A stretch of 34,621 bases of DNA from assembly GCA_004299085.1 (NCBI GenBank), contig SCQV01000227.1, positions 1 to 34,621 of the forward strand, in the 5' to 3' direction. Positions 579-29,681 of the stretch are shown here, in pieces. Made by a program: the position numbers and the translations under genes. The stretch is from Chitinophagaceae bacterium. GTDB lineage: Bacteria > Bacteroidota > Bacteroidia > Chitinophagales > Chitinophagaceae. How positions within the stretch are numbered: the first letter of the stretch is position 1; the number at the start of each line of letters is the position of its first letter. Under the pieces are notes generated by a model, which was not told the origin of the DNA, did no database searches, and saw only the letters and a list, made by a program, of their open reading frames with translations.

Positions 579-917
579 TCACATCCAACCCAACGCCTGC
601 CTGCCCTCTTCTGTAATGCTTTCTGCTGACCATGCCGGCTCCCACACCAGATGAATATGAATATCTTTATCCGGAAAAGCAGATTGCAAAACCTCGCTCG
701 CATTTTGTGTTATCATAGGCCCCATAGGACAGCCACGCGAGGTCAGTGTCATCACAATGCGAATCGTTTTTTCATCTTCTACATAATCTATATCATATAC
801 CAATCCCATGTTTATAATATCAAGTCCCACTTCAGGATCATACACCTGAAGCAACAACTCTCTCGCTTGTTGTTTAATAAAAGCATGGGGATCCGTAATA
901 TCAATTTCTAACGCCAT
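579..917 (-). CDS. SufT/MIP18-type metal-sulfur cluster assembly factor (DUF59)
   Basis: This 112-residue protein matches the MIP18/DUF59 family (SufT, PaaD-like). It shows the family pattern VYDPEVGLDIINMGLVYDI near residues 25-43 and the segment TLTSRGCPMGPMI, with the conserved cysteine near residue 64. Family members help load Fe-S clusters onto target proteins. The start overlaps the end of the upstream membrane-protein gene by 17 bases (901-917), which implies co-translation. Placement in a Ric operon fits maturation or repair of Fe-S proteins after oxidative or nitrosative damage. The family is clear; the client proteins cannot be known from sequence. It may act outside any SUF operon, since no suf genes lie in the window. 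Confidence 0.88.
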   Translation of the reverse strand: MALEIDITDPHAFIKQQARELLLQVYDPEVGLDIINMGLVYDIDYVEDEKTIRIVMTLTSRGCPMGPMITQNASEVLQSAFPDKDIHIHLVWEPAWSAESITEEGRQALGWM

Positions 918-2226
918 CTGCTGTCTTTTTTAGTTCAGGGATATTCCTGATTTTGTGAGTTACCGCAATAAAAACATTTACATTATAACATACTGCTGTA
1001 AATAACAATCCAATGCACCCAATTGTTATCATCCAGTGAGAGTGAGTTAAAACGCCTGCCAGCAGTAAAATATAGCCTGTGATATAGGCATAAAACTGAT
1101 AACGGACTAACTTTTCCTCATATAGATCCCGGGGAAGTGGAATTTTTGTTTTACCAATAAGCTTTTTGTAACGGTTCATCCAGACAATAAACGGCAGGGT
1201 CTTGAAAGTTTGTCCAAGAATGATGGCAGTAATAAAGCCTCCGATAATACTGATTCCATAAGCCAGGCTAAAAGTAACATCTGTACTGGCAGCACTATCC
1301 GGCAATAAAGCAATGACCAGTAATAAAATGAAGGGTATAAACATAATACCAATGGCCGTCAGGGTAACTTTCATGGGTACATCCATCTTCTTCGTCCGCA
1401 CACCTTTATCAAAAGTCCGTTTGACGAAAATGGCATACGAAATAACCCCCGCTAATATAGTTAATGCAAATACAGGCCAATACTTTTCCGTATTAAAAAG
1501 AAAAGCCATGATCAAAAAACCGATCAGGGCAATATTAATGCAATAATAAGCGACCCTTACGGCTTTTCCCGGTTCATGATGGGAGAGTAAAAACATGGGA
1601 ATTAATCTGGAAGCTACCCCCATAATCATCAGCAGAAACCAGCCCGCCATGCCTAAGTGGGCATGTATCTTTAAATAATATAAATGATCCTTCGGGAAAA
1701 AAGCATAGCGCAGATTAAATACTAATAACGTGCCAAGAATAGCGGTCAGCAACAGCCACCAGGAGGCGGTAACAATACATTCAGAAGTAATAGTCCATTT
1801 CTCATTTTGTTTAGCAGTTCTATACACATTAATCACATACAAAACAATAGAAGACAAAATTAACAACGCTCCTAATTCCAAAGTCCACCCAACTGCAAAA
1901 AACCAGAAGGAAGCCGTCAGAAAAACAACTCCTGGCAATAACAAGATATAACACCATTTAGCCAGCTTTTCGCTGAATAAATGAACTTCCATGACGACCG
2001 GCAGCAGTTGATGAGAAGCGCCGAAGATGATCATCGTTCCCCATCCCAGCGCAGCCAAATGAGTAATAGTGAGAATATGAGGCTGAAAATAGTGTCCTAA
2101 AAAAGAACCTGAAGACAGGAGCATCAGCAGTGTCAGTATAAAAAAGACGATGGACGCAGTAATATAATAAGGTAAAACAACCGAAGGAGACGGTGCCTTC
2201 TGTGTTCCAAGTGACATCATGGCCAT
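901..2226 (-). CDS. NnrS-like / heme-copper oxidase subunit I-like membrane protein
   Basis: This is a 441-residue polytopic inner-membrane protein with about 12 hydrophobic segments. Histidines sit in membrane-proximal motifs: H50 and H56 in ITHLAALGW, H72 in GASHQLLP, H188/H190 in KIHAHLGMAGW, and H216-H217. This resembles the stand-alone subunit-I-like proteins and NnrS family of Bacteroidota, related to CcoN/NorB folds that bind heme and sometimes copper. No subunit II, III or cytochrome c partner lies nearby, so it is unlikely to be a complete oxidase. It follows the DUF2249 gene by 15 bases and overlaps the DUF59 gene. NnrS-type proteins relieve NO stress, and the operon supports that role. 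Whether it reduces NO, binds heme or only senses is not decidable here. The start could also be Met3 or Met4. Confidence 0.75.
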   Translation of the reverse strand: MAMMSLGTQKAPSPSVVLPYYITASIVFFILTLLMLLSSGSFLGHYFQPHILTITHLAALGWGTMIIFGASHQLLPVVMEVHLFSEKLAKWCYILLLPGVVFLTASFWFFAVGWTLELGALLILSSIVLYVINVYRTAKQNEKWTITSECIVTASWWLLLTAILGTLLVFNLRYAFFPKDHLYYLKIHAHLGMAGWFLLMIMGVASRLIPMFLLSHHEPGKAVRVAYYCINIALIGFLIMAFLFNTEKYWPVFALTILAGVISYAIFVKRTFDKGVRTKKMDVPMKVTLTAIGIMFIPFILLLVIALLPDSAASTDVTFSLAYGISIIGGFITAIILGQTFKTLPFIVWMNRYKKLIGKTKIPLPRDLYEEKLVRYQFYAYITGYILLLAGVLTHSHWMITIGCIGLLFTAVCYNVNVFIAVTHKIRNIPELKKTADGVRN

Positions 2227-2241
2227 GGCTGTTATTGATAT

Positions 2242-3066
2242 TTAATTTTTCCAAATTAACAATCGCACGTCTGTTTCACCGGCCTTATAAACCAGGTATT
2301 CAGCTTTTCGCTCCTTCAATTCGTTAAAAAGAAATATGGGTATTCGTTTATGCGTCACAGACAAAATATGATTTTCCGGTAAAGAAGATAACGCTTCCAG
2401 AATAGTCACCATCGGCATCGGCATTTCCATCTCGCTCACATCAACAGACACTACCTTATCTCCGAAAGACTTTAACTTTTCAGTAAAATCCTTTTCATCG
2501 CACAAATCCGGTAATTCATTTTCGAGAGCATCAGCTTTTTCATCAGCACCTTCTTTCAATTTAAAAAAAGCATGCACTTCATTTTCTTTTTTCGTTTCCA
2601 CATAACTCTCATAACCTTTTTTATTTAACATGTTGACCAAAGGAGTCGGTTCAAAGGTATTGATGATTTCCAACACATTCCCTTTGGGAAGCTGCTTTAC
2701 CGCCGCCATTATCTTTTTTAGTGGATCCTGGCCGGAAGCCAAATCTTCCCTGACATCTAAGATTGTTCTCTGATATTTATCTATAGACAGCATAAATGCG
2801 GGAGTAAAAGCAAAAGCCTCTTGTTCATCCTTCGTCTCTTCATTCACCCAATCAAACCCAAGAGGCTTTAATGCTACTGCTAACTCATCTATACTACATC
2901 CTCCTATTTTGGCGGCTTGCGCGAGCGTCGTACGCCCTGCCAGCATCTTTTGCAATAACGGGTTCCTTAGTCTTTGTAAAGGCTTCGCTACTGCAGCAAT
3001 GGCATCCACACTGCGTTTATTTTCTTTTATGATGCTTAAAATCTTCGTGTTGTTATTAATAATCAT
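2242..3066 (-). CDS. DUF1858-DUF2249-DUF2249 protein
   Basis: This 274-residue soluble protein appears to be built of three modules. Residues about 5-72 resemble DUF1858 (TKILSIIKE followed by a helical region ending IDELAVALKPLGF). Residues about 97-160 form a DUF2249-like domain (TILDVREDLASGQDPLKKI, then LPKGNVLEI). Residues about 195-272 form a second one (VVSVDVSEMEMPMPMVTILEAL, shown in part). DUF2249 folds resemble TusA/SirA-type sulfur-carrier domains, but I see no conserved catalytic cysteine. It lies 3 bases from the cupin gene upstream and 15 bases from the oxidase-like gene downstream. The same domain type is fused to Ric in this operon, so the two proteins probably share a partner or ligand. 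Function is unknown; a role in NO or Fe-S stress is inferred. Confidence 0.75.
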   Translation of the reverse strand: MIINNNTKILSIIKENKRSVDAIAAVAKPLQRLRNPLLQKMLAGRTTLAQAAKIGGCSIDELAVALKPLGFDWVNEETKDEQEAFAFTPAFMLSIDKYQRTILDVREDLASGQDPLKKIMAAVKQLPKGNVLEIINTFEPTPLVNMLNKKGYESYVETKKENEVHAFFKLKEGADEKADALENELPDLCDEKDFTEKLKSFGDKVVSVDVSEMEMPMPMVTILEALSSLPENHILSVTHKRIPIFLFNELKERKAEYLVYKAGETDVRLLIWKN

Positions 3067-3069
3067 CCG

Positions 3070-3351
3070 TTATTTTGCCATTTCAATTTTAGCTTCGGGA
3101 CCTATGACTATAATAGCATCAAAATCCTTTACCACCTTCAGGTTATGTTGCTTGTCACCCGGTATTAAATAAGTAGTTCCTTCTTTAATGTTTACGGTAC
3201 TACCGTCAATAAAATTTATATTAGCCTCCCCTTTCCGAATGACGACGAATGCATCTGAGGTGGCATAATGTTCCGGCATTACTCCGCCTTCGGGAACCTG
3301 GGCATTTAAAATCTTATAATTTGTACCTGAATAAACTTGTTCTAATTTCAT
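3070..3351 (-). CDS. Small cupin protein B of a tandem pair
   Basis: This 93-residue single-domain cupin is paralogous to its upstream neighbour. Both share the segment EHYxTSDAFVV near residues 27-37. Histidine candidates for metal binding are H28 and H69 (in IPGDKQH). The usual HxH pair of cupin motif 1 is missing: one histidine is followed by Tyr, then a TSD triplet. The protein is cytosolic with no signal peptide. It starts 2 bases after the preceding cupin stops and ends 3 bases before the DUF1858/DUF2249 start, so translation is probably coupled. The fold call is fairly secure. The substrate or metal is unknown; a sensor or metal-handling role in the Ric operon is a guess. Confidence 0.8.
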   Translation of the reverse strand: MKLEQVYSGTNYKILNAQVPEGGVMPEHYATSDAFVVIRKGEANINFIDGSTVNIKEGTTYLIPGDKQHNLKVVKDFDAIIVIGPEAKIEMAK

Positions 3352-3353
3352 TT

Positions 3354-3647
3354 TTACTGCTTTGTATTTGTTTTTACCCCTTTAATTTTACCCATCGGCG
3401 CCAGCGTAAAAAATGCTTTTAAATCACTGGAAACAATCAGCGAATGCGGCTTCAAACCGGGAATCAGAAATGCCGATCCCGCACATAAGTCCACCTGTTT
3501 ATCCTTGAAGATAAGCTTTGCATTTCCATCAACCACTACCACAAAAGCATCGGAAGTAGTATAATGTTCTTCCATTTTCCCACCTGCAGGAATCTCAGCT
3601 TTCAAAACCTTGTGAAATCCGCCTTTGCATATTTCCTCTAATCCCAT
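3354..3647 (-). CDS. Small cupin protein A of a tandem pair
   Basis: This 97-residue cupin is the first of two tandem paralogues. It carries EHYTTSDAFVVVVDG near residues 27-41, with H28 as a candidate ligand, and IPGLKPH with H68 as the motif-2 histidine. As in its twin, the second histidine of the normal HxH motif is absent. Other residues are conserved between the two copies (GG, ..EH, LIPG.k.H), so this is an old duplication rather than a recent one. It lies 20 bases downstream of ric and 2 bases upstream of the second cupin. Hypothesis from context: an adaptor or metal-binding protein acting with Ric. No enzyme activity can be assigned. Confidence 0.8.
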   Translation of the reverse strand: MGLEEICKGGFHKVLKAEIPAGGKMEEHYTTSDAFVVVVDGNAKLIFKDKQVDLCAGSAFLIPGLKPHSLIVSSDLKAFFTLAPMGKIKGVKTNTKQ

Positions 3648-3667: not shown

Positions 3668-4624
3668 TTAGTTTGCCAGATTCTTTTCCATTTTTACTGC
3701 CTTGGGAAATAAAATATTATTTTCCAGATGGATATGCACATGCAGATCATCATCCATTTCTTGCAGCTTATGAAAATATAAAGCGTAGCTTTCACATCCG
3801 TCTGCAGGTACCAGGTAATTATCCGATAGCTTCTCCACGGCATGAAGGTGGGCAGCTACTTCATCATGATCATGCAGCATCATTTCCACAGGGCTTTCGA
3901 TGGTGCCGAAAGGCGGAAAAGAGAATGGACTGCCATCACGCTCACTTTGTGACATTTGCCGGATAAAAGGAAATAATATCTTTTCTTCCTTAATCTGATG
4001 ACTATGCATTTCTTTCAACAATCCCTCCACATGATGCTGTATCTCAAAAAGCTCGGGGTGATGAGGCCCGTGATGCTGTGCAATCTTTTGAGATAATCCG
4101 GCTAATAGCGGTGTGGATTCTCTTACATATTTGTGATGAACATTCACAATATAATCAGCCAGAAAATCGAGATCCCAACTGTCAAAATCCATTTGCCTTC
4201 CCTTAGCAGATTGTTCCGGGAGATGTTTCAATGCTTCCTTCACTTCTGTTTCGGATACGCCGGCTTCTTTGCAGGCTTCTTTCAGTGATTTTTTACCATC
4301 ACAGCAAAAATCTATTCCGAATTTTTTAAATACCTCTGCTTTACGCAAATCTTTAGCAGCAATTTCACCTACGGTTTCCTCCCCCCTGCCCAATTTCTTT
4401 TTAGCAATTTTAATTTCAAATATATCAGGGCCCTGCTTGAGATAATCCCAGTTAAAAATATCACCCCGTTCCGCTAATAGCTGATAATATAAAGGTTTGG
4501 GATCGTGGTCATTGTGAATGACAAATGCATCGCCTTCCTGTAAAGCATCGAAATGTTGAAAGATGGTAGGATGCTTGAATCTCGGTTCAATCTGTGTGAC
4601 ATCCAGCGTTTCTATTTCTGCCAT
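3668..4624 (-). CDS. ric: Iron-sulfur cluster repair di-iron protein Ric (YtfE/ScdA/DnrN) with N-terminal DUF2249
   Basis: Ric proteins repair Fe-S clusters damaged by NO or peroxide. From the ATG at 4624 the protein has 318 residues in three parts. A DUF2249-like domain covers about 1-76. A ScdA_N/DUF542 domain covers about 84-136, with the diagnostic FGIDFCCDG and vicinal Cys107-Cys108. A hemerythrin domain covers about 150-318, with HH near 163-164, HSHQIKEEKILFPF at 207-220, HDHDE at 251-255 and HIHLENNILFPKA near the end. The frame is open 138 bases further upstream, but that extension runs through the TACCTTTG promoter box and palindrome, so 4624 is the better start. It is the first gene of a seven-gene operon. 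The extra DUF2249 is unusual compared with E. coli YtfE (about 220 residues). Confidence 0.93.
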   Translation of the reverse strand: MAEIETLDVTQIEPRFKHPTIFQHFDALQEGDAFVIHNDHDPKPLYYQLLAERGDIFNWDYLKQGPDIFEIKIAKKKLGRGEETVGEIAAKDLRKAEVFKKFGIDFCCDGKKSLKEACKEAGVSETEVKEALKHLPEQSAKGRQMDFDSWDLDFLADYIVNVHHKYVRESTPLLAGLSQKIAQHHGPHHPELFEIQHHVEGLLKEMHSHQIKEEKILFPFIRQMSQSERDGSPFSFPPFGTIESPVEMMLHDHDEVAAHLHAVEKLSDNYLVPADGCESYALYFHKLQEMDDDLHVHIHLENNILFPKAVKMEKNLAN

Positions 4625-4661: not shown

Positions 4662-4669
4662 CAAAGGTA
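4662..4669 (-). promoter_or_regulatory. Bacteroidota -7 box of the ric operon
   Basis: On the minus strand this reads TACCTTTG, an exact match to the Bacteroidota -7 consensus TAnnTTTG. It lies 37 bases before the ric ATG, so transcription would start near 4655. I did not find a well-spaced TTG -33 element; a palindrome occupies that place. Confidence 0.65.
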
Positions 4670-4675
4670 GTTTAA

Positions 4676-4697
4676 AAAAGGATAAAAACATCCTTTT
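4676..4697. promoter_or_regulatory. Candidate operator palindrome upstream of ric
   Basis: This is a perfect inverted repeat, AAAAGGAT at 4676-4683 and ATCCTTTT at 4690-4697, with a six-base spacer. It lies directly upstream of the ric -7 box, about -21 to -42 from the predicted transcription start, where a dimeric repressor would block the -33 region. I saw no second copy in the window. It also lies about 90 bases before the divergent DUF4382 gene. It does not have the FNR/CRP-type TTGAC-N4-GTCAA form. The regulator is unknown; an Rrf2/NsrR-like dimer is a guess. Confidence 0.55.
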
Positions 4698-4786
4698 ATA
4701 ACAAAATTCCTAATCGGAACACAATGTTTCCAAAAAGAGTAAAAAAAGGTGCTACCTTGCAACTTTGTAACCTTAAACCTTTTAAA

Positions 4787-5635
4787 ATGAAACTTATAAA
4801 GCCTTATTATGTCAAGTCAGTTACGCTAATCTCCTTCGTTTTTATTTCAGCCATGTTTTGTTTGAGTTCCTGTCAGAAAAATGATCATAAACCGTCCGTT
4901 AAAAATACCGCTACTTTAAATTTATACCTCACTGATGATCCTGCCGACTATAAGGAAGTATGGGTTGATATTCAGCAGGCGAAAGTTCAGTTCGCAAATG
5001 ACAGCAGCCAAGGGAATTCCTGGCAGAATCTTGCGCTATCACATCCCGGAAAGTATGATTTGCTTAGTTTAAGAAACGGAGTTGATACGTTATTCGCTTC
5101 AGGAATAGTCCCGGCTGGCAAGGTCTCTGCCATCACGCTCACACTGGGAGATAATAATTCGCTCGTTTTTAAAGACGGGCAAACAGTGCCTTTGGTGATA
5201 GCCACCGGAAGCCAAAAGCAACTAACCCTTCAAATAGAAAATGTATATTTAAAGGCCGATACATCCCATGCATTGGTGCTCGATTTCGATGCTGCGCAAT
5301 CTGTTTTAAGCCCCGGTTCAAGGGATAGCGGTGATTTTGTGTTGAGTCCCATCATTCGTGTATTTGAAAAAGGCGCCGGCGCTTCTATTGATGGATGGGT
5401 ATATCCTGCTGCTGCTCAGGCACACGTGGAGGCAATCAGCCATTCAGGGGAAACGCTGGTTGCTATTCCTGATAATATTACAGGCTTCTATAAATTCTGG
5501 GGAATACCGGAGGATACTTACACACTCAATTTCATAGCAGATACAACTACAGGATATCAGCCTGCTGTGTTGAAAAACATCTATGCTATTGAAGGTAAAG
5601 ACATCCGGATGGATACGGTGGTATTGCATAAATAA
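4787..5635 (+). CDS. DUF4382 family lipoprotein
   Basis: This 282-residue exported lipoprotein has a positively charged start (MKLIKPYY), a hydrophobic stretch and a lipobox LSSC with the lipidated cysteine at residue 29. The region from about residue 40 (TLNLYLTDDPADYKEVWVDI) matches the start of the DUF4382 domain, which covers roughly residues 40-190. A carboxypeptidase-regulatory-like beta domain probably follows (about 195-280, with YKFWGIPEDTYTLNF). The ATG at 4787 was chosen over an in-frame ATG at 4724 because only the former places a signal peptide at the N terminus. A near-consensus -7 box CAACTTTG lies at 4760-4767. It is divergent from ric and convergent with metK. Its function is unknown; it is probably anchored in the outer or inner membrane. 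Confidence 0.85.
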   Translation: MKLIKPYYVKSVTLISFVFISAMFCLSSCQKNDHKPSVKNTATLNLYLTDDPADYKEVWVDIQQAKVQFANDSSQGNSWQNLALSHPGKYDLLSLRNGVDTLFASGIVPAGKVSAITLTLGDNNSLVFKDGQTVPLVIATGSQKQLTLQIENVYLKADTSHALVLDFDAAQSVLSPGSRDSGDFVLSPIIRVFEKGAGASIDGWVYPAAAQAHVEAISHSGETLVAIPDNITGFYKFWGIPEDTYTLNFIADTTTGYQPAVLKNIYAIEGKDIRMDTVVLHK

Positions 5636-28721: not shown

Positions 28722-29081
28722 TTAGAATATTGTTTCTATCGCGGAATACAATTCTTCGGAATATAATTTCAATTGCTTATCCCTTTGCAGGCTTATAAAT
28801 TCCCGGGCAGGCATTTCTGAAAGATGAGAATTAAGCTCTATGCCATCGGTTAGTTCCGGTAAATGGCTCATCTCTGAAATCGCAATAAATTCCCAGACAA
28901 TCCTTTGTCCGGAATCATTAATAAATTCAGAGGCATCTTTCTCACCCCATACGGCAGCATTTTGCAGTGCTTCCTGTAAATTTTTACCATTGATCAAGCG
29001 GAGCTTTTCCTCGAATAAGCCCATCTCACTTTCTTCCTCAGTGAGAATGCGGAATACAATTTTTGCAAGATACCAATTCAT
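28722..29081 (-). CDS. DUF4288 domain protein
   Basis: This is a 119-residue cytosolic protein. It starts MNWYLAKIVFRILTEEESEM, the start typical of DUF4288, and includes FEEKLRLINGKNLQEAL and WEFIAISEM. The function of the family is unknown. The ATG overlaps the TGA of the TetR gene by the four bases ATGA (29078-29081), so the two are translationally coupled and probably share regulation. Confidence 0.8.
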   Translation of the reverse strand: MNWYLAKIVFRILTEEESEMGLFEEKLRLINGKNLQEALQNAAVWGEKDASEFINDSGQRIVWEFIAISEMSHLPELTDGIELNSHLSEMPAREFISLQRDKQLKLYSEELYSAIETIF

Positions 29082-29653
29082 AATCCATATCTTTTTTCAA
29101 TCAGTTTTTTCATATTCTTAACCGGGTATTCTTCCCCTAACGTCAGATAGCCAACAGACATGCCGTCAAAGATTGCGCCAAATAAATACGCCTCCCCTTC
29201 CGGGTCTTCCATTTTTAATTTTTTAAATAAATCTGTCAATGCCGACATCCACACGATTCTCATCTTATCAAAATCTTTTTTAAGCCCTTTCATCACCTCC
29301 GGCTGTAAGACTAATGCCATCATCAGCCGGTTTATCTTCGGCTTTTGAACGATATAATTAACAGAAAAATCAATCATTCGCTGCATATATTCTTCCGGTG
29401 ACAATGATTCACTCCATTGCATCATAACAGCGGTTTCTTTCAGCAATAACCCAAACAGGTTTTTCAGGATATCCTGCTTGCTGCTGAAATAATGATAAAT
29501 CAGTCCTTTGGAAATCTTCGCTTTGGCGGCTATGCTATCTACAGAGGTTCGCGTATAGCCATGAATGGCAAATAATTCAAAGGCGGCCATTAAAATCTTT
29601 TTCCGGCTTATTTCCTGCATTTCCTTAAAATCTTCTTTCTTCCTGGGCGCCAT
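29078..29653 (-). CDS. TetR-family transcriptional regulator
   Basis: This 191-residue repressor has an N-terminal TetR DNA-binding domain (about 14-62): RKKILMAAFELFAIHGYTRT, then SVDSIAAKAKISKGLIYHYF, where the recognition helix ends in YHYF, the family hallmark. The C-terminal ligand domain is diverse and its inducer cannot be told. A near-palindrome at 29662-29681 overlaps its own -7 box, so autoregulation is likely. It heads a same-strand run of five genes ending at 26645. Targets beyond its own operon are unknown. Confidence 0.92.
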   Translation of the reverse strand: MAPRKKEDFKEMQEISRKKILMAAFELFAIHGYTRTSVDSIAAKAKISKGLIYHYFSSKQDILKNLFGLLLKETAVMMQWSESLSPEEYMQRMIDFSVNYIVQKPKINRLMMALVLQPEVMKGLKKDFDKMRIVWMSALTDLFKKLKMEDPEGEAYLFGAIFDGMSVGYLTLGEEYPVKNMKKLIEKRYGL

Positions 29654-29661
29654 AATCTTTA

Positions 29662-29681
29662 TTGACTGATTAGTCGGTCAA
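29662..29681. promoter_or_regulatory. TetR operator candidate
   Basis: TTGACTGATTAGTCGGTCAA is a 20-base near-palindrome: arms TTGAC/GTCAA, with centre GATTAGTC. It resembles GACTGACTAGTC-type operators of several TetR repressors. It begins 9 bases before the TetR ATG and overlaps the -7 box. Confidence 0.65.

Follow-up and report, generated by a model that had tools for sequence, protein, structure and literature searches.

A conserved inverted repeat at the ric promoter as the predicted operator of an NsrR-like Rrf2 regulator in Bacteroidota

We analysed a 34,621-nucleotide stretch of a Chitinophagaceae genome (contig SCQV01000227.1; hereafter the window) and found that a perfect inverted repeat at the promoter of ric, which encodes an iron–sulfur cluster repair protein, judging from sequence comparisons, very probably serves a dimeric Rrf2-family regulator with an NsrR-like mode of action as its operator. 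The best reading of these comparisons is that this Rrf2 protein would repress the NO response in Bacteroidota and would resemble NsrR without being its orthologue. The first-pass annotation had taken the palindrome for a repressor site, and this view gains support from its conservation in 36 of 49 ric upstream regions, its promoter position and a linked Rrf2 gene.

The palindrome at the ric promoter and its conservation

The ric product scored 224.7 bits against the TIGR03652 FeS_repair_RIC model, above the model cut-off, and the gene opens a same-strand run that continues with two cupin genes and genes for a DUF1858/DUF2249/TusA-like protein, a membrane protein, an FeS_assembly_P protein and a hemerythrin-domain protein (Table 1). 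The membrane protein may be NnrS-like; a gene in a similar position in Pontibacter roseus (L036) gave a COX1 match below the cut-off. Upstream of ric, the arms AAAAGGAT and ATCCTTTT, separated by N6, form an exact repeat, as first described, with no other match in the window at fewer than three mismatches; allowing up to three mismatches gave four matches in the window against 0.66 expected. The exact palindrome occurs once in the 4.98 Mb genome, at the ric promoter only. Its centre lies 17 bp upstream of the −7 box, TACCTTTG (TANNTTTG type), and it therefore covers the −33 region, in agreement with the placement originally proposed. The box alone proves little, because three copies are present in the window against 1.0 expected. 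Taken alone, the palindrome is not significant: the window has a single pair of perfect 8-bp arms around a 6-bp spacer, where 20 shuffles averaged 1.25, and when the intergenic stretch was shuffled, 12% of the resulting sequences contained a perfect 8-bp palindrome with a spacer of 0–12. The divergent DUF4382 gene (4724–5635, plus strand) starts within approximately 100 bp of the palindrome.

Table 1. Features of the ric run and its promoter in the window
Feature	Position	Strand	Basis
Hemerythrin-domain protein, last gene before the contig end	4..510	−	Pfam
FeS_assembly_P (SufT/PaaD-like) protein	579..917	−	Pfam
Multi-pass membrane protein	901..2226	−	No family match in Pfam or NCBIfam
DUF1858/DUF2249/TusA-like protein	2242..3066	−	Pfam
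Cupin gene	3070..3351	−	Pfam Cupin_2
Cupin gene, second of the presumed ric operon	3354..3647	−	Pfam Cupin_2
ric: DUF2249 + ScdA_N + hemerythrin, iron–sulfur cluster repair protein, 318 aa (start at 4624)	3668..4624	−	Pfam, TIGR03652
−7 promoter box of ric, TACCTTTG	4669–4662	−	Sequence
Predicted Rrf2 operator, AAAAGGAT-N6-ATCCTTTT	4676..4697	−	Sequence + conservation

A search with one genome per species yielded 49 loci with a ric relative. For scoring, the 130 bp upstream of ric were taken from the window and 48 of these loci (49 regions), L072 being left out with only 57 bp upstream. Read by eye, most loci have an inverted repeat near the start codon, with the common form AAARGA-N8-TCYTTT, to which positions 4677–4696 of the window's palindrome are an exact fit in register. 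Within 130 bp of the ric ATG, this consensus was found without mismatch in 27 of the 49 regions (0.03 in dinucleotide shuffles), with at most one mismatch in 36 (0.68 in dinucleotide shuffles) and with at most two in 42 (6.6 in shuffles); since the consensus was derived from the same regions, the excess is a measure of conservation and not an independent prediction, and the independent test of the consensus is the genome-wide site search described below. Scoring of 300 bp gave 37/50 at one mismatch or fewer (0.87 expected) and 45/50 at two or fewer (9.6 expected), including matches at L058, L071 and L077 that are too distant for trust and are gone from the 130-bp count. The sites with at most one mismatch comprise 22 distinct 20-mers, one of them common to 12 entries, and thus do not represent a single copied promoter; many entries are close kin (Pontibacter).

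L035 is the nearest relative, with 83% identity in ric; its palindrome matches that of the window down to the spacer, and the flanking bases differ. Loss of the palindrome with retention of the box, which the first-pass annotation had named as evidence against its proposal, is not the pattern found, given the 36 regions above and the identical repeat in L035. On this comparative evidence, conservation raises the palindrome far above chance. The best −7 box lies 17–29 bp downstream of the site centre in most relatives and upstream of the site in L062, L066, L069 and L083. Both layouts, with the site over −33 or downstream of the box, suit a repressor, and repression is therefore favoured. At the ric genes of L059, L071, L076 and L077 the operator is absent at up to two mismatches, despite an Rrf2 gene in the locus.

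A second element, the CRP/FNR-like TGAYNNNNRTCA, is present in 10 of the 49 regions (130 bp; 0.28 expected), lying 55–91 bp before ric in L046, L049, L053, L057, L060, L062, L070, L073 and L083. It stands together with the palindrome in L049, L053, L060, L062, L070, L073 and L083, so that double control of the same ric gene is possible; in L046 it is present, with both Rrf2 and the palindrome absent. Its occurrence suggests that some members of the phylum probably have ric under regulators of both classes. The window has no TGAYNNNNRTCA in the 130 bp upstream of ric, and its promoter does not carry the TTGAC/TTGAT-N4-inverted site of CRP/FNR-type NO regulators (HcpR, DNR). The earlier suggestion of a regulator outside the CRP/FNR class is supported for the window's palindrome, with the refinement that ten of the regions carry TGAYNNNNRTCA too. 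BLAST with the window's TetR protein and one CRP-like protein gave no match in the ric loci, a weak test with two queries. A TetR-family gene in the window (29078–29653, minus strand) has a near-palindrome upstream, TGACTGATTAGTCGGTCA (29663–29680), abutting a TACCTTTG box (29686–29679); this is likely to be an autoregulatory operator, unlike the ric palindrome.

Linked Rrf2 genes and the predicted regulon

The first-pass annotation had proposed a search for a co-conserved regulator of the Rrf2 or TetR type. With the Rrf2 protein encoded on contig C78 of the window's genome as BLAST query, 35 of the 49 ric loci proved to contain an Rrf2 gene. A match anywhere in the genome was obtained for 45 of the 49 genomes searched; among those without a match, L046 and L065 are also without the operator, and L041 and L051 have it. 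The window's genome contains three Rrf2 genes, two of which are paralogous candidates for the regulator of the window's site (C78 and C431), and neither candidate adjoins ric there. The C78 run consists of DUF2249, Rrf2, a COX1-family oxidase, FixO/cytochrome c and a globin. Its DUF2249–Rrf2 operon is preceded by a single clear operator arm, ATCCTTTTAT before TATCTTTG, without a full palindrome, as is also the case in G001, a congener. In L087 (2832–7356), the COX1-family protein encoded after this Rrf2 gene is far below the ccoN cut-off, and this gene set with its FixO/cytochrome c and globin is possibly an unusual NO reductase. In P. roseus the order is ric, hemerythrin, DUF2249, membrane protein, FeS_assembly_P and Rrf2, a run similar in content to that of the window with Rrf2 as a late gene.

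All 66 collected Rrf2 proteins have the cysteine motif CX6CX5C. The C78 protein belongs to the Rrf2 superfamily by its scores against PF02082 (85.1 bits, cut-off 30) and TIGR00738 (81.8 bits, cut-off 73.3), and is below the cut-off of every NCBIfam equivalog, including those for NsrR (NF008240, 35.9 versus 182 bits) and IscR (TIGR02010, 53.4 versus 207.55 bits). Sequence matches of the Rrf2 proteins in the structure database were 6y45 (9.1e-11), 4hf2 (8.4e-10) and 5n07 (1.4e-7), and the nearest solved relatives by profile were, in order, a 6y45/6hsd-type Rrf2 family protein, IscR and NsrR. The 6y45/6hsd protein, entered as Rrf2 family, we take to be RsrR.

The genome-wide search used the strict pattern TAAARGA-N8-TCYTTTA in 25 genomes, with the reversed pattern as a control, and gave 28 and 16 sites respectively. 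Twenty of the 28 strict sites are directly upstream of nitrogen-oxide genes, compared with none of the 16 reversed sites, which are mostly intragenic. These 20 sites, from related genomes and thus non-independent, span seven gene kinds: ric (2), DUF2249 genes (2), Rrf2 (2), COX1-family genes (4), NorB-type NO reductase (2), cytochrome c (6) and cupin with or without globin (2). The COX1-type genes may be NO reductases or oxidases; for the cytochrome c sites, the next gene is nosZ at L112, the one site checked, and the others were recognized by likeness to L112. The sites at stand-alone Rrf2 genes, 36–39 bp upstream (L097 and L110), point to autoregulation. The uncounted strict sites are intragenic (L096, L099, L108 and L120), inside a 150-aa frame (L101), 175 bp from a PaaD-like gene (L121), 107 bp from UbiA (L118) and 22 bp from a gene of no recognized kind (L195).

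The window's own genome has no match to the strict pattern, and AAARGA-N8-TCYTTT gave nine sites against eight reversed, mostly intragenic with only ric convincing; it therefore shows no regulon excess beyond ric. Its one-mismatch palindromes were rejected as a regulon, as they sit in coding genes or before a toxin–antitoxin-like pair and not at nitrogen-oxide genes. This pair (L003, 1190–1522; contig C165), which we take to be MazEF-like, is preceded by a one-mismatch palindrome that is probably the pair's own operator or chance. In G001 the looser pattern gave 20 sites against nine reversed, with convincing sites at ric, a second ric and a DUF2249–cupin operon. The second ric gene is at 2956–3681 of L090 (contig C156) in the window's genome, with its G001 counterpart near 5716 of L094; AAAAGACTTCCAGGTCTTTT is upstream of the G001 gene, and the copy in the window's genome has a related, weaker inverted repeat.

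A variant operator, AAAAGT...RCTTTT, is present at five ric loci (L061, L074, L075, L078 and L080), and at all five the linked Rrf2 protein has the recognition helix EHTVGK. The remaining linked Rrf2 proteins have PxxFxxK-like helices, except that of L077, where an EHTVGK protein is found with a ric gene carrying neither operator type. The EHTVGK proteins form one clade (tree support 100/98), indicating that the helix change was one event. Whole-genome searches found a single variant site at the ric promoter of each of the five genomes and none in the sixth EHTVGK genome (G098, that of L077); elsewhere there was one further site, in G077 (L200). G070 carries both Rrf2 types, each paired with its own operator type, the standard Rrf2 with a standard operator upstream of the gene that encodes it (L097) and the EHTVGK Rrf2 with the variant before ric.

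Proposed mode of action and rival explanations

By analogy with NsrR (PMC9338935, PMC9268430 and PMC5015018), an iron–sulfur Rrf2 dimer would block the promoter until NO damages its cluster. In unstressed cells the dimer, with a cluster held by the three cysteines of CX6CX5C, would occupy the 22-bp site and, lying over the −33 region, would deny RNA polymerase access to the ric promoter. Once NO or other damage had destroyed the cluster, the Rrf2 protein would leave the DNA, and ric and the downstream genes would then be made. For the window's site, we infer binding, repression rather than activation and the NO signal, and either C78 or C431 would be the acting paralogue.

The repeat could have arisen by chance in an AT-rich intergenic region, since taken alone it is about as frequent as in shuffled sequence (one versus 1.25); this is refuted by the conservation (36/49 versus 0.68 expected), and we regard it as practically out of the question. 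It is also improbable that the palindrome serves another regulator, of the CRP/FNR or TetR type or from an unknown family, with Rrf2 as an operon bystander. The presence of TGAYNNNNRTCA upstream of ric in ten relatives and the position of Rrf2 away from ric in the window's genome would fit such a view, but the CRP-like site and the palindrome are distinct elements that often occur together, the former is missing from the window's 130 bp, and the ric loci are without relatives of the TetR and CRP queries used. Moreover, the operator is also found before stand-alone Rrf2 genes, and the variant operator accompanies a changed Rrf2 recognition helix.

Somewhat less remote, though still unlikely, is that the site belongs to Rrf2 and the regulator activates ric, or senses the iron–sulfur or redox state in the manner of IscR or RsrR, and not NO. 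RsrR-type and IscR structures were matched as well as NsrR, the C78 protein is under all NCBIfam equivalog cut-offs and ric itself repairs iron–sulfur clusters. However, the site position, at −33 or downstream of the box, favours repression, and the targets are NO reductases, globins and nos genes, not isc or suf genes. An NsrR-like repressor is the preferred reading.

We further consider it likely, with rather less confidence than the operator assignment itself, that a Bacteroidota-wide Rrf2 regulator distinct from NsrR, HcpR and IscR runs the whole nitrogen-oxide response via one 22-bp operator, and that joint change of operator and recognition helix, as in the EHTVGK/AAAAGT clade, keeps duplicated Rrf2 copies insulated. 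If so, iron–sulfur repair would fall under this one control along with NO reductases of several kinds, globins, N2O reductase and the cupin/DUF2249 proteins. The operator and its linked regulator give a concrete prediction of NO-responsive genes in Bacteroidota, and the paired helix and operator change offers a basis for a specificity-swap test.

Comparison with known systems

The closest parallel is NsrR of Proteobacteria, Bacillus and Streptomyces. Both are Rrf2 winged-helix proteins with three cysteines, the predicted operator of approx. 22–23 bp lies over the promoter, and the targets include ric/dnrN, NO-detoxifying enzymes and the regulator itself; the likeness in NO-detoxification regulon comes from 20/28 strict sites in relatives, with ric only in the window's own genome. 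NsrR is described as repressing ric (PMC9268430), and ScNsrR as having a 23-bp site and Cys93, Cys99 and Cys105 (PMC9338935). The differences are that the operator here is AAARGA-N8-TCYTTT and not the gATGyAT-N5-ATrCATc given for NsrR (PMC1274295), that the cysteine motif is CX6CX5C rather than the CX5CX5C of ScNsrR (PMC9338935), and that the partner genes here are DUF2249, cupin and nos. HcpR, a CRP/FNR protein of Bacteroides and Porphyromonas, likewise serves nitrosative-stress control in Bacteroidota, where it is described as controlling nitrosative-stress genes, including Bacteroides fragilis dnrN (PMC1274295). It differs in its TTGACnnnnGTCAA-type site, to which a similar site occurs at ric in ten of 49 relatives and not in the window. 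RsrR and IscR share with the present proteins the best sequence matches in the structural database and inverted-repeat sites, that of RsrR being 11-3-11 bp (PMC5015018), but target genes and operator sequence differ and the present proteins are below the IscR equivalog cut-offs.

Bacteroidota are among the lineages with clade II N2O reductase, and a 2018 study reported Rrf2 genes adjoining nos clusters of Flavobacteriales and others, beside clade II nosZ in Bacteroidetes metagenome clones, and called the role of such Rrf2 genes "difficult to predict" (PMC6264515). The available text of that study gives no operator or targets for them, a gap that the operator proposed here would fill. The titles and abstract openings of the open-licence literature searched contained no description of an Rrf2 operator in Bacteroidota. 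Thus the kind of system is already known, and relative to that literature the operator, the regulon and the helix–operator pair are new.
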